From IMG/VR virus record IMGVR_UViG_3300035698_005518, positions 1 through 21,725 of that record: a stretch of 21,725 nucleotides of DNA; one strand, written 5' to 3'. Under the pieces are notes generated by a model. The model did no database searches and was not told where the DNA came from. It saw nothing but the letters and a program-made list of their open reading frames with translations. The position numbers and the translations under genes are program-made. Positions 2,386 to 21,725 of the stretch are shown here, one piece after another. The stretch's first letter is position 1. Each line of letters starts with the position of its first letter. Origin of the DNA: a virus.

Positions 2386-2761
2386 ACACGCGGGTGGGGC
2401 GCCTCTAATTTTCACAGAAGAAAAACTCGCAAAGATGAAGAAGCAAATAGAAAAATATACCAAAGAAACCGACATCCCAATACTTGCTGAGTGCGCAACA
2501 CGGATGGATATTCTAAGACAAACATTATATGAACATGATGAGTTATCCGACGCTATAAAAAAGCTGATACAGAAAAAAGAGGCACAACTTGAAAAACTGG
2601 CTTCCTTTAACGTGATAAACCCCACTATGGCAATATTCAGTCTAAAGCAAATAGGATGGAAAGATAAGCACGAAATTGATAGTACAATAATAATAAAAAA
2701 CAAATCAGATTTGGAGAAATTACCCGATGATGAACTCAGACGACTTGCGGAAGATGGCTAG
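2378..2761 (+). CDS. terS: Terminase small subunit (putative)
   Basis: The start is TTG 2378, because AAGGAG ends 7 bases upstream; it overlaps the preceding stop. The 127-aa product fits a small terminase in size and position. A helical N-terminal half (about residues 14-60) could form the DNA-binding helix-turn-helix, followed by charged helices and the segment IFSLKQIGWKDKHE (about 86-99). That segment resembles the LKNxxGWxDK(x)E signature common in small terminases of Gram-positive and related phages. The last part is acidic (KLPDDELRRLAEDG) and may contact the large subunit. TerS recognises the packaging site and loads the motor. The gene overlaps the large subunit gene by 35 bases, which supports paired expression. 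Confidence 0.8.
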   Translation: MSKHAGGAPLIFTEEKLAKMKKQIEKYTKETDIPILAECATRMDILRQTLYEHDELSDAIKKLIQKKEAQLEKLASFNVINPTMAIFSLKQIGWKDKHEIDSTIIIKNKSDLEKLPDDELRRLAEDG

Positions 2762-4187
2762 AGCAGAAGAAGCCAAACGCATTTTGTCCCGTCGGAATGT
2801 GTTAGACTTTACAAATTACACTTTTGAAAAATTTGAGCCAGCACCATTTCATACTATTTATTATAAAATACTCGATATGTTCGCAAAGGGATTGATTAAA
2901 AATTTAATAGTTTCTATGCCTCCCCAACACGGGAAATCTGAGGGAGCTAGTAGAAGGCTTCCTACGTATATGCTAGGGGCAAATCCAGATCTAAGAATTG
3001 GACTAGGGACGTACAATCAAACATTTTCCAGGAAGTTTAATAGATCGAATCAAAAGATACTTAATGACCAGAAATATATAAACCTTTTTCCTGAGACCAA
3101 AATCGGGTCCAGAAAACACACAGATAAATATACCTGTAATGCTGACGAATTTGAGATAATAGCGAAGGACGGAAGTTTTCGGAATGTCGGTCGTGGTGGT
3201 GGTATTACCGGAGAAACTATTGATACTATGGTTTTAGATGATGTGTATAAAGATTATGAAGAGGCCAATAGTCCTGTCATTAGAGAATCGGCTATAAATT
3301 GGTATACTACATCAATCAACACTCGATTGCATAATGATTCACAAAGATTGTTAGTTTTCACTCGTTGGGATGAAGGGGATTTAATCGGGCATATCGAAAG
3401 CACCGAGGAAGTAATAATAGTGACCTCATTCTCACAACTAGAAAATACCGATCCAAGCAAATGGTATAAAATAAACTTTGAAGCGATAAAAACCGGCGAA
3501 CCAACAGAGATTGACCCCAGGAAACGGGGTGAACCGTTATGGCCGGAACGACATAGTTTAGAAAACCTTCTAAAAGCGAAAGCATTAGACCCTGAGAAAT
3601 TCGAAAGTCTTTATCAGGGCAATCCAAGACCGGCAGCAGGATTATTATATCGAAGGTTTAAAGAATACGATGAATTACCGGATAAGATTATCAAGATAGG
3701 AAATTATACTGATACCGCAGATACAGGGAAAGATAAACTTTGTTCTGTATGCTATGACAGAGGGTCTGATGATCTTATTTATATCACTGATGTTTATTAC
3801 ACCGACGAACCGATGGAAATTACCGAACCGGCAACCGCAAAGATGTTAGATAAGAATGGAACAAGAGAATCAGACATTGAAAGCAATAACGGTGGTCGTG
3901 GATTTGCCAGGAATGTTAAGAAGCAAACCAATCAAATGTGTACGGTCAAATGGTTTCATCAAAGCGGGAATAAGGAATCTCGTATCTTGACGAACTCGGC
4001 CTCTGTGTTACAAAATGTAATTATGCCAAAGGGTTGGATTTTAAAGTGGCCGGAATTTGCAAACGATGTACTGAGATATAAACGAATGTTCAGTGCCAAT
4101 AATTTTGACGATGCACCGGACACGTTAACCGGAATTGTAGAGAAGAACATCGGGAGCCAATATGCACACATAAGGAGATACGCATGA
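2727..4187 (+). CDS. terL: Terminase large subunit (ATPase and nuclease)
   Basis: The motor protein that cuts concatemeric phage DNA and pumps it through the portal. In its 486 residues I see the ATPase P-loop MPPQHGKS (64-71), a Walker B region TMVLDD (167-172), and FTRWDEGDL (211-219), a hallmark of the psiM2-type terminase family. The linker YQGNPRPAAG (296-305) follows, then an RNase H-like nuclease. Its likely metal ligands are Asp329/Asp332 in TDTADTG, a Glu in the ESDIESNNGG block (381-390), and Asp461/462 in DDAPDTL. All expected motifs are present and the length is normal. The first ATG at 2727 has GGAG 10 bases upstream; 2730 or 2754 are possible alternatives. The last codon joins the portal start by ATGA overlap. 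Confidence 0.95.
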   Translation: MMNSDDLRKMARAEEAKRILSRRNVLDFTNYTFEKFEPAPFHTIYYKILDMFAKGLIKNLIVSMPPQHGKSEGASRRLPTYMLGANPDLRIGLGTYNQTFSRKFNRSNQKILNDQKYINLFPETKIGSRKHTDKYTCNADEFEIIAKDGSFRNVGRGGGITGETIDTMVLDDVYKDYEEANSPVIRESAINWYTTSINTRLHNDSQRLLVFTRWDEGDLIGHIESTEEVIIVTSFSQLENTDPSKWYKINFEAIKTGEPTEIDPRKRGEPLWPERHSLENLLKAKALDPEKFESLYQGNPRPAAGLLYRRFKEYDELPDKIIKIGNYTDTADTGKDKLCSVCYDRGSDDLIYITDVYYTDEPMEITEPATAKMLDKNGTRESDIESNNGGRGFARNVKKQTNQMCTVKWFHQSGNKESRILTNSASVLQNVIMPKGWILKWPEFANDVLRYKRMFSANNFDDAPDTLTGIVEKNIGSQYAHIRRYA

Positions 4188-12268: not shown

Positions 12269-12847
12269 ATGCCCAGACAAACGAATGAAGCGAATACCCA
12301 ATTTCCCGATGGTTGCAAGATAGAAATATCCACAGACGGGACTACCGGATCAGCATGGGACGATTTAGGTATTATAGCCGGTGGAGTAAATTGTACCCTA
12401 AATTGGGATCAATACTATCTCGATGCTGGTAATTACGAGGGATTAATTGACAAAGCCAAAAATCCTGTTTTTGCTATTGCACCTTCTGCAATCCTTAATT
12501 GGGAACATGCGGCGATTGCTCATGCTTTTCCTGGAGTGCTCTCTACGGCAGACGCATCGGCTTCTCCGGTAGCAGGAAATAACATCACTTATGCCGGAAC
12601 AAGTAATCAGGTTACTCTCACACGATCAAAGATTAGACTGACCCATTACACAGTTGCTTTTGCCTCTCAAGCAGATCAGTACATAGATTGGCAAGTAACT
12701 CTCCATAATTGTGTTATAGATGCCGGTGCTACATTTAATTTTAAAGGTGTGAATGAAGAAGGGTTAGACGAAATCACTCTTTCCTTCACAGGCAAACCTG
12801 ATCCAGCTTCAAGTTTTGTACTCTTTACCTTATTCAAAGCATCCTAG
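12269..12847 (+). CDS. Tail tube protein, copy 1 (192 aa)
   Basis: One of two neighbouring, clearly related genes. The 192-aa product begins MPRQTNEANTQFPDGC, as the next gene begins MPRQTNQKAFLIPDGC. The shared core has AGGV...L.WD..Y.DAGNYEGL.D..KNP.FA..PSA.LNW (about residues 37-78) and a shared end around GATFNFKGVNEEGLDEIT (about 153-170). Beta-rich, no cysteine cluster, between terminator and chaperone genes: the place and size of a major tail tube protein, which stacks in hexameric rings around the tape measure. GGAGG stands just upstream of ATG 12269. This copy is the minimal-length one. Which copy builds most of the tube cannot be told from sequence. Confidence 0.75.
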   Translation: MPRQTNEANTQFPDGCKIEISTDGTTGSAWDDLGIIAGGVNCTLNWDQYYLDAGNYEGLIDKAKNPVFAIAPSAILNWEHAAIAHAFPGVLSTADASASPVAGNNITYAGTSNQVTLTRSKIRLTHYTVAFASQADQYIDWQVTLHNCVIDAGATFNFKGVNEEGLDEITLSFTGKPDPASSFVLFTLFKAS

Positions 12848-12856
12848 GGGGATCTA

Positions 12857-13702
12857 ATGCCAAGACAAACAAACCAGAAAGCCTTCCTAATTCCCGATGG
12901 TTGTAATTTCGCAATCGACGTGGGTAATGGATTTGAAGATGTCGGGATCCTCGCAGGCGGGGTAAGTGCATCACTCGGATGGGATAATTTCTATATGGAC
13001 GCGGGGAATTACGAAGGATTAGTAGACAGGATGAAAAATCCGACTTTTGCGGTTAATCCCTCAGCCTTGTTAAATTGGGATCCGCAGATTATAGCTAAAT
13101 GTCTACCTGGGGTTTTATCCTCAGCAGCAGCCGTTTCTCCGGCTACAGGATTTGACGTAACTTACGCCGGGACTTCTAATCAAGTAACCGTAACCAGATC
13201 CTCTTTACGATTGACTTATTTTCCCGACGATAAAGAAACATTTACAATGTCGAGTAGTGTCACCGCGGTTGATAATGTATCAAATAATCAAATGGTCACT
13301 GTTCCACTATTTAACTTGATCGCTGTATTAGGACCGACAGCAACCAAAATAGACGGGTATATATTTATTCCTACTATGACAGAAGTATCTTACGCTGACA
13401 GAGATTTGATAGCGAACAGGGGGAACTTTTACACCGATGCGGGGAACTTATACATAATAGTAACCGCTTCCTTATACGCTGACACAGATGCAGCCGATAG
13501 CGCACTAGACGATACAGTTATAAGTTTTTGGGACAACGTAGATTGGCAGTTTACCTTTTATAACGCGGCAATAGACGGTGGGGCGACATTTAATTTTAAG
13601 GGAGTTAATGAAGATGGACTTGACGAGATTACCGTAAGTTACACGGGAAGAGCAGACCCCGCGAATTCTTACCAGTTACTCAATTTATTTATAGCTGACT
13701 AA
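12857..13702 (+). CDS. Tail tube protein paralog, copy 2 with inserted domain (281 aa)
   Basis: Starts 10 bases after copy 1 and matches it along both ends; by my count about 60% of core positions are identical over residues ~32-92. Between them lies an extra stretch of about 90 residues (roughly 128-220), where copy 1 has only a short loop. The insert runs from ETFTMSSSVTAVDN through PTMTEVSYADRDLIANRG to YTDAGNLYIIVTAS and is beta-rich, acidic in its later half, and absent from copy 1. The end again has GATFNFKGVNEDGLDEIT. An inserted domain in a tube subunit usually lies on the outside of the tube, like Ig-like domains of other phage tubes. The fold of this one is unknown to me. It could give a mixed-tube tail. 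Confidence 0.75.
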   Translation: MPRQTNQKAFLIPDGCNFAIDVGNGFEDVGILAGGVSASLGWDNFYMDAGNYEGLVDRMKNPTFAVNPSALLNWDPQIIAKCLPGVLSSAAAVSPATGFDVTYAGTSNQVTVTRSSLRLTYFPDDKETFTMSSSVTAVDNVSNNQMVTVPLFNLIAVLGPTATKIDGYIFIPTMTEVSYADRDLIANRGNFYTDAGNLYIIVTASLYADTDAADSALDDTVISFWDNVDWQFTFYNAAIDGGATFNFKGVNEDGLDEITVSYTGRADPANSYQLLNLFIAD

Positions 13703-13714
13703 AGGAGAAAAAGA

Positions 13715-14092
13715 ATGAAAGTAGGAATAGGACGGAAAGCCATTGAGCTTGAAGTTAATGAGGAACTATTCACGATTAAATTTGTATCGGTATTCGCGAG
13801 GAAAAGAGCAAGCGATCTTTTCAGTATGGTTGATAAAATCACCAAAATAAACGATTTGCCGGACGAAGAAAAAGTAAAAGCAATGAGCGATTTGGAAGAG
13901 GTTGAACTTAATAATATTCTTGAATCAAGAACAGAGTGTATTGAAAATCTCTTAACTTCTAACGGGTATAAATTTGACCCTGATTGGTGGGATAAAAATA
14001 CTGGTTACGAAGAACAGAATGAGTTTATTTATGTCTGTCTTGCGAAAGATATTACTAAAAAAAAAGTGATTCCAAAGCAGTCGGAGAAATAG
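13715..14092 (+). CDS. Tail assembly chaperone, short form (gpG-like)
   Basis: Normal-frame product of 125 aa, with AAAGGAG upstream of ATG 13715. It is helical and charged, with VNEELFTIKFVSVFARKRAS (about 14-33), an acidic stretch, and DPDWWDKNTGYEEQNEFIYVCLAKD (about 88-112), of the 'FW...EFI...' style seen in chaperones of siphophage tails. Such proteins bind the tape measure before tube assembly and do not stay in the virion. It lies between tube and tape measure genes, as expected. The frame ends with TAG 14090-14092; the A9 run at 14057-14065, within codons 115-117, allows the longer product listed separately. Confidence 0.82.
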   Translation: MKVGIGRKAIELEVNEELFTIKFVSVFARKRASDLFSMVDKITKINDLPDEEKVKAMSDLEEVELNNILESRTECIENLLTSNGYKFDPDWWDKNTGYEEQNEFIYVCLAKDITKKKVIPKQSEK

Positions 14093-14292
14093 ACTTTGAA
14101 CGGCTGTATTTTGCATGCAGACAAGCAAAGGTTGTTTCATGCAAAGAGGAATTCTGGTTCGAAATGGACTTACCAGACTTGGAGAATGCAGGGGCTTTTG
14201 TCTCGCGTGAGATTTGGGACGAATTTATTATAAAGAAATCGGACAAGATTAAAATTACAGCGAACGATTATACAAAGAGGCGTCATGGCTAG
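13715..14292 (+). CDS. Tail assembly chaperone, -1 frameshift fusion (gpGT-like, 192 aa)
   Basis: A -1 shift at the A9 run joins residues 1-117 of the short form to a 75-residue extension, ending at TAG 14290-14292. The extension starts SDSKAVGEIDFERLYFACRQ and ends NDYTKRRHG; it is helical, charged and tryptophan-bearing (EEFWFEMD, EIWDEF), like known T-domains. The -1 frame has a stop TAA at 14056-14058 and is then open from the A run to 14289. It contains no ATG before 14164, so a separate gene is unlikely. This fills an otherwise empty 190-base gap before the tape measure, and its stop overlaps the tape measure start by 8 bases. In lambda the fusion form is made at a few percent and recruits tube subunits to the tape measure. 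Confidence 0.8.
14057..14065 (+). promoter_or_regulatory. Slippery A9 site for -1 frameshifting
   Basis: In the normal frame the codons read ACT AAA AAA AAA GTG, giving A_AAA_AAA, a heptamer on which both tRNAs can re-pair after a -1 slip. A weak bulged hairpin (CAAA/TTTG plus GTC/GAC, 14073-14098) follows about 8 bases later and may help. The short A run could also let RNA polymerase slip. Confidence 0.75.
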
Positions 14293-20148: not shown

Positions 20149-21725
20149 ATGGCTGATAATGTTACGACCGATGATATTAAACTTATATCCGAATATGCCG
20201 AATTAACAGAACTTGATACCGGTGACTTTATATTAACCGAGGATATTACTGATAATAGTTTTAAAAAGATTACAGAGACAAATTTTAAGACAACCACAGG
20301 TATAACTGCAAACACTACCCATAAAAGCTCTGACGGGAAAGATCATTCTGACGTAGTTTTGAATAACACTCACAGGGCAAGCGATGGCAAAGATCATAGT
20401 GATGTTGTATTAAACAATACGCATCGAGCCTCAGACGGTACAGATCATTCTCACGTAATATTAAACGATACCCATAGAGCTAGTGACGGCAAAGATCATT
20501 CTGACGTAGTGCTTAATAATACTCACCGAACTTCTGACGGGTCAGATCATACCTTCGTAGATCAATCAGTAATTTCCGGCGCTTCCCCAACTCTTGACGG
20601 TGCGAACATAACCGGAGTAGACCCTGCGGGGATAGACATCACTGCTACAAACAGACTGCTTGGTCGTTCAACCGCAGGGGCAGGAGTATCCGAAGAAATC
20701 ACGGTTGCCGGAGACATTACCCAATCCGGTTCAACTTTCACGATTGGAGCCGATAAAGTTACGTATGATAAAATGCAGGATACCTCTGCAACTGATAGAC
20801 TTCTCGGACGTTCAACCGCGTTAGGCGGTACAATCGAAGAAATCACGGTTGCAGGGGATATCACTCAATCAGGTTCAGACTTCACAATCGCCGATGACGC
20901 CGTTACTTACGCCAAGATGCAGAATGTTACCGCTACTGACAAGTTATTAGGCAGAGACACCGCGGGCGCAGGGGTAGTTGAAGAACTCGGCGATACCGCT
21001 GTGAAGACTATGCTTGCTTTGGAAAATGTTTCAAACACAGCGGATGCTGCAAAACCCGTTTCAACCGCCGGACAGACAGCTCTTGATTTAAAAGCACCCT
21101 TGGCCTCACCATCATTTACCGGAACTGTCACCACCGCCGGAGCGATAGAACTAGGGCACGCTTCTGACACAACTTTAGCTCGCGACAGCGCAGGGGTTAT
21201 ATCTGTTGAAGGGGTTGAAATAACCAACAACACGAAAGCACAGACCTTGACTAATAAATCATTGACAGCGCCTGTAATTAGTACTATAGAGCTAGGCCAT
21301 GCCACTGATACCACAATAGCAAGAGATAGTGCCGGAGTTGCAAGTATAGAGGGTGAAGAAATAACAACCAATGTTAGAATACAGACCTTAGCCAATAAAA
21401 CACTGACATCTCCTAAACTAAATGAAGATGTTGTACTTAGTGCTACAGCTACTGAACTAAATGCAGTAACAGCAAACATTGCAACAAACGTTAGTGACAT
21501 AGACACCCTCGAAGCAGACCTCACTACCTCAATTTCACCCGACATAACCAACGAAGAACCCACAAACAAAACAGGTGATGGCTCGACAGACATATCCGCA
21601 GTAATCGTGGACGGCAGCGCAAGCGTTGAGATTCAGGGTAAATCATACGATAACCAAGGTGAGGACACATGGGCAACCGCTTTAACCGGATGGACATCCA
21701 CGTATGATTCTATCGTATCCGAAAA
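20149..21725 (+). CDS. Large tail fibre protein with three tandem repeat families (partial, 3' end missing)
   Basis: ATG 20149 lies 6 bases after TAGGAGG (20136-20142). The frame stays open for 525 codons to the right edge, so the stop is outside the window. Residues 1-57 (MADNVTTDDIKLISEYAEL...) are an attachment segment. Five 17-residue repeats follow (20320-20574, HRASDGKDHSDVVLNNT-like), then 48-residue repeats with LLGRSTAGAG and EEITVAGDITQSG (20641-21010). Next come 47-residue repeats with ELGHATDTTIARDSAGV and QTLTNKTLT (21145-21423), then a stretch with LSATATELNAVTANI. This stacking is normal for trimeric fibre shafts; the receptor-binding head would be beyond the edge. The long antisense frames across it are shadows. 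Confidence 0.88.
   Translation, partial: MADNVTTDDIKLISEYAELTELDTGDFILTEDITDNSFKKITETNFKTTTGITANTTHKSSDGKDHSDVVLNNTHRASDGKDHSDVVLNNTHRASDGTDHSHVILNDTHRASDGKDHSDVVLNNTHRTSDGSDHTFVDQSVISGASPTLDGANITGVDPAGIDITATNRLLGRSTAGAGVSEEITVAGDITQSGSTFTIGADKVTYDKMQDTSATDRLLGRSTALGGTIEEITVAGDITQSGSDFTIADDAVTYAKMQNVTATDKLLGRDTAGAGVVEELGDTAVKTMLALENVSNTADAAKPVSTAGQTALDLKAPLASPSFTGTVTTAGAIELGHASDTTLARDSAGVISVEGVEITNNTKAQTLTNKSLTAPVISTIELGHATDTTIARDSAGVASIEGEEITTNVRIQTLANKTLTSPKLNEDVVLSATATELNAVTANIATNVSDIDTLEADLTTSISPDITNEEPTNKTGDGSTDISAVIVDGSASVEIQGKSYDNQGEDTWATALTGWTSTYDSIVSE
20320..20574 (+). repeat. Five 51-bp tandem repeats in the fibre gene (17-aa unit)
   Basis: Units start at 20320, 20371, 20422, 20473 and 20524, each 17 codons, with consensus HRASDGKDHSDVVLNNT. 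The fifth breaks off after about 15 codons. Histidines at positions 1 and 9 and aspartates at 5, 8 and 11 recur in register, with no insertion between units. Codons vary between units, so the repeats are old or kept at protein level. Confidence 0.9.
20641..21010 (+). repeat. 144-bp tandem repeats in the fibre gene (48-aa unit)
   Basis: Units start at 20641 and 20785, with a third, truncated one from 20929 to about 21010. Each opens ATDRLLGRSTAGAG-like, then EEITVAGDITQSGS, FTI, and ends VTYDKMQ. The period is exactly 144 bases. LLGRxTAGAGxxEE units are frequent in phage fibre shafts. Confidence 0.85.
21145..21423 (+). repeat. 141-bp tandem repeats in the fibre gene (47-aa unit)
   Basis: Two units start at 21145 and 21286 (IELGHASDTTLARDSAGV... 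and IELGHATDTTIARDSAGV...), each continuing with an EGxEI segment and QTLxNKxLTxP. Similarity is obvious at protein level and lower at DNA level. Confidence 0.85.

Follow-up and report, generated by a model that had tools for sequence, protein, structure and literature searches.

A probable lambda G/GT-type −1 frameshift at an A9 run in front of a phage tape measure gene

In a 21,725-base IMG/VR record, analysed over its whole length and called the window below, two overlapping reading frames directly 5' of the tape measure gene most probably (we would put it at roughly 0.8) encode a tail assembly chaperone of the lambda G/GT type, the second frame being reached by a ribosomal −1 frameshift on the heptamer A_AAA_AAA. 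This reading had been proposed in a first-pass annotation of the bare sequence, and it is supported by position, gene order, frame relation, the heptamer itself and the preservation of the extension in relatives. The arrangement is well known in tailed phages, and the locus is real, well supported and ordinary. What it adds to the known phage recoding mechanism is a further well-supported example, in which the A9 site has been kept exactly.

Anatomy of the locus

The capsid genes of the window are followed by head-tail genes, two similar open reading frames, the G/T region and the tape measure gene. The features of the region are the following.

13715-14092, plus strand: G-like tail assembly chaperone reading frame, 125 amino acids, zero frame, with the Shine-Dalgarno sequence AAAGGAG before its ATG
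14056-14058, plus strand: TAA closing the −1 frame just 5' of the slip site; the same TAA is found in the relatives L097, L178, L179 and L180
14057-14065, plus strand: putative A9 slip site in the phase AAA_AAA_AAA, with the canonical heptamer A_AAA_AAA at 14059-14065
14065-14292, plus strand: T-like extension in the −1 frame, 75 amino acids plus TAG (14290-14292), with 48-60% identity to L097, L178 and L179
14077-14147, plus strand: two predicted RNA hairpins 3' of the slip site, a candidate stimulator; not kept in L097
14285-16579, plus strand: tail length tape measure protein, 764 amino acids, matching PHROG tape measure families (best E 1.5e-29)

Both reading frames (13715-14092 and 14065-14292) thus stand directly 5' of the tape measure gene at 14285. 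The zero-frame reading frame and the −1 frame overlap by 34 nucleotides, in which the second frame has no start of its own and A_AAA_AAA forms an X_XXY_YYZ heptamer in phase. Sequence inspection located the 75 added residues after the AAA at 14063-14065, and the first ATG of the −1 frame at 14164. The end of the T frame overlaps the tape measure gene by 8 nucleotides, from its ATG at 14285 to the TAG. The first-pass annotation had been exact to the base for the A9 run, for the TAA in front of it and for the frame staying open to the TAG; the length of the extension and its end 8 bases past the tape measure start were re-derived from the sequence, and its statement that no ATG precedes 14164 in this frame was confirmed and found to hold for GTG and TTG as well. 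It had also described a gap of 190 bases before the tape measure gene which a gene finder would leave empty: the gap is there, its length is 192 nucleotides, and we agree that the T half gets left out.

No match was obtained for G or T in Pfam, and PHROG yielded only weak matches of unknown function for the two (best E 0.0023-0.01). G and T are assigned as chaperones by where they lie, by their frames, by the slip site and by conservation, and not through similarity in sequence to any chaperone family already described. The locus shares with lambda gpG/gpGT the two overlapping frames directly 5' of the tape measure gene, a −1 shift close to the 3' end of the first frame, a heptamer in the overlap and a T extension that stops where the tape measure gene begins. 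It differs in having no detectable sequence similarity at the family level and in its slip site, which is A_AAA_AAA within an A9 run in the window and G_GGA_AAG in lambda. For the lambda gpG/gpGT frameshift PMC5009743 cites Levin 1993 and Xu 2004, 2013 and 2014. Tail assembly chaperones share little sequence, a family match being usual and not required, and the lambda G/GT arrangement has been kept across a wide range of tailed phages although their sequence similarity is low (PMC5009743).

Tandem ribosomal −1 slippage on A_AAA_AAA, as in lambda G/GT, is the simplest reading of the locus. Most ribosomes would read the zero frame and yield the 125-residue G-like protein, and in a minority the two lysyl-tRNAs on A_AAA_AAA (14059-14065) would slip back by one base into the −1 frame, which would give a GT fusion of 192 amino acids with a T part that stops where the tape measure gene begins. 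If the proteins act as in lambda, G may bind the tape measure protein and T may recruit the major tail protein to it; the ratio of G to GT, as set by the shift, would then matter for tail assembly. The ribosome as the slipping agent, the efficiency of the shift and the functions of both parts are inferred here. Reporter measurements on two phage tail chaperone genes found 6 and 7% shifting (PMC3711429), and in E. coli A_AAA_AAA is reportedly much less prone to shifting than A_AAA_AAG (PMC5009743).

The hairpins predicted downstream of the slip site have a z score of −3.7 in the window; in the comparison with L097 the window scored −2.6, and no comparable hairpin structure was found downstream of the slip site in L097 (z +1.1 to +1.7). 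Since the hairpins are missing in L097 and the stronger one begins 44 nucleotides past the site, the candidate was rejected and no stimulator is claimed.

Relatives carrying both halves

Relatives of the locus were reached only through the tape measure protein and later through a T alignment scan, which added L178 and L179/L180. Searching viral contigs and phage records directly with the two protein sequences, G and T, gave no match, the DNA of the window showed no similarity to phage records, and a pattern search for further contigs with the exact slip site found none. In L097 (IMG/VR 3300035104) the G counterpart has 29% identity over 119 amino acids (E 7e-13) and the T counterpart, lying in the −1 frame relative to G, 48% over 71 amino acids (E 1e-22). 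The join reads AGT AAA AAA AAA GTC. L178 (60% identity in T) and L179/L180 (50%) also have both halves in the same two frames, and the sequence T-A9-GT is identical in the window and all four relatives, G being 29-30% and T about 48-60% identical to the window's proteins. Between L097 and L178 the differences in the T frame fall on codon positions 1, 2 and 3 in the proportion 14/14/42, and such a bias towards the third position is what selection on a translated frame leaves behind. Synonymous positions are near saturation among the relatives, yet the nine A's are unchanged; in the window's genes lysine is encoded by AAG in 92 of 256 cases.

The identity of T with L097 and L178 starts right after the A run and takes in the 33 residues that precede the first ATG, from which it follows that the frame is entered from upstream. 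This bears on the alternative of a small gene on its own, started at ATG 14164, with no fusion involved. An AGAGGA is found 5' of this ATG, about 12-13 nucleotides away, which is a poor spacing, and L097 has an ATG at the matching position; but the conservation extends over the stretch ahead of the methionine, the methionine itself sits inside a conserved FWxxMD motif, and no standard start codon precedes it in the −1 frame, which together make a separate gene exceedingly improbable. An extension with its own start in relatives, which the earlier annotation had named as the finding that would speak against its proposal, was not encountered: L097, L178, L179 and L180 all keep the −1 frame. That the extension belongs to the gene is settled by these relatives from public viral contigs.

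The same four contigs bear on another possibility, namely that the frame break is a homopolymer error of sequencing or assembly and that the true gene is one continuous reading frame. The run is indeed a homopolymer within a metagenomic contig, and one related locus has a G-T gene in a single frame. The identical A9 run with the identical frame break recurs, however, in the four related phage contigs, and in more distant relatives the frame breaks at heptamers which are not homopolymers. An error of this kind is thus very improbable and already largely refuted. A chance overlap of the two frames was set aside, as were the separate start and the assembly error.

The single-frame case is the contig L017, which is assigned to a Spirochaetia MAG and whose tape measure N-terminus is 58% identical to that of the window. 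Positions 2438-3001, 5' of its tape measure gene, form one uninterrupted reading frame with G and T parts and an A6 run at the join, resembling both the G (E 7e-6) and the T (E 8e-5) of L097. It may be a true fusion that works without a frameshift, or a one-base error of the contig. Four points were counted against the frameshift reading of the window: the missing match to a family model, the reportedly lower shiftiness of A_AAA_AAA in E. coli, the lack of a conserved downstream structure and the one-frame gene of L017.

Survey of related loci and the slipping agent

The A9 run is the sole A/T run of nine in the 21.7 kb of the window, which has one other run, of eight. At 2220-2230, inside the reading frame 1864-2385, an A8 run contains the heptamer A_AAA_AAA in phase. 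In-frame XXXYYYZ heptamers occur at 30 of the 6012 codon positions across the window's genes, and one of them falls within the 34-nucleotide overlap. A stronger test against chance than these counts is a comparative survey, for which loci were gathered from public data through a related tape measure and the mirrored +1 arrangement was scored on the same loci as a control. Under strict criteria 102 of 163 loci had a G-like reading frame followed in the −1 frame by an extension up to the start of the tape measure gene (+1 control: 15), and a heptamer lay in the overlap in 91 of these 102, as compared with a background of 8.4% in windows of equal length elsewhere in the same reading frames. Under relaxed criteria, with the window included, a −1 extension ended near the tape measure start in 127 of 164 loci (+1 control: 25), 112 of the 127 having an X_XXY_YYZ heptamer in the overlap (+1 control: 7). 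Many of the surveyed loci are near copies of each other, 113 distinct G reading frames remaining, and several which fail the strict filter have, by eye, a similar G/T pair and a longer apparent tape measure frame.

The other heptamers of the survey include A_AAA_AAC, T_TTT_TTC, T_TTT_TTT, A_AAA_AAG, C_CCT_TTA (L003) and G_GGA_AAC (Butyrivibrio phage Arawn). The −1 pattern is thus common, and the slip heptamer varies freely while the arrangement stays constant. Among the named phages Butyrivibrio phage Arawn (L009), Paracoccus phage Shpa (L011) and Synechococcus phage S-LBS1 (L014) share with the window a related tape measure and a −1 arrangement ending at its start, whereas their heptamers (G_GGA_AAC, A_AAA_AAG and A_AAA_AAC, respectively) are unlike that of the window. 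In none of the three records is the GT fusion annotated as a joined gene. As several of the survey heptamers are not homopolymers, the ribosome is the likely agent at those loci.

For the A9 run itself RNA polymerase has to be considered as well. If it added one A to the run in part of the transcripts, the extra base would let a ribosome reach the T frame by normal decoding, and the same GT fusion would be made. The locus has nine A's at the frame junction in common with the transcriptional slippage of Thermus dnaX and of IS elements (PMC1088944), and differs from these in its in-phase canonical −1 heptamer and in that most of the surveyed loci do without long homopolymers. A9 is a run length that many bacterial genomes avoid, which has been attributed to transcriptional slippage (PMC1088944). 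Seven of the eight distinct A_AAA_AAA sites of the survey are exactly A9, though A7 would suffice for the ribosome; the A9 sites span two groups between which neither G nor T shows detectable similarity, the window group and that of L031, L149, L156 and L026; and no stimulatory structure is conserved. Against polymerase slippage, most other loci of the survey have shorter or interrupted runs such as A_AAA_AAC, C_CCT_TTA or G_GGA_AAC, so that the shared solution is most likely ribosomal, and slippage of RNA polymerase is not expected on the C_CCT_TTA of L003 or the G_GGA_AAC of Arawn. All A9 members of both groups, moreover, have the same phase, NNT AAA AAA AAA, which slippage would not require; an in-phase heptamer is always there, and the A9 sites represent only about two independent lineages. 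Polymerase slippage as the source of the fusion is regarded as unlikely, and the ribosomal shift as the preferred reading.

The chaperones of L031 (2622-2630), L149, L156 and L026 seem to belong to an unrelated family, in which T-A9 has the same phase and is directly followed by a zero-frame TAA. It would be a rather speculative step further, and is quite unlikely, that in these phages the chaperone ratio is set wholly or partly by polymerase slipping on a maintained A9 in place of ribosomal −1 slippage, T-A9 having been reached by two unrelated chaperone families. The A9 subset does offer a clean place to ask whether it is the polymerase or the ribosome that slips.

Other reading frames of the window

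The window is a tailed-phage structural module, in which Pfam recognised a terminase, an SPP1-like portal, a Mu F-like protein and a SU10-type capsid protein. The two similar reading frames just 5' of G are arranged in tandem (12269-12847, 192 amino acids; 12857-13702, 281 amino acids), the second having an internal insertion of roughly 80-90 residues. With no Pfam or PHROG match of note for either, they are read as major tail proteins from their position alone, and they are likely paralogous. At the far end of the window an open-ended plus-strand reading frame (20149-21723) of at least 525 amino acids contains repeated segments (ASDGKDHSDVVLNNTHR and a longer repeat). It probably encodes a tail fibre-like protein, and the long minus-strand reading frames over the same positions are probably its shadow.
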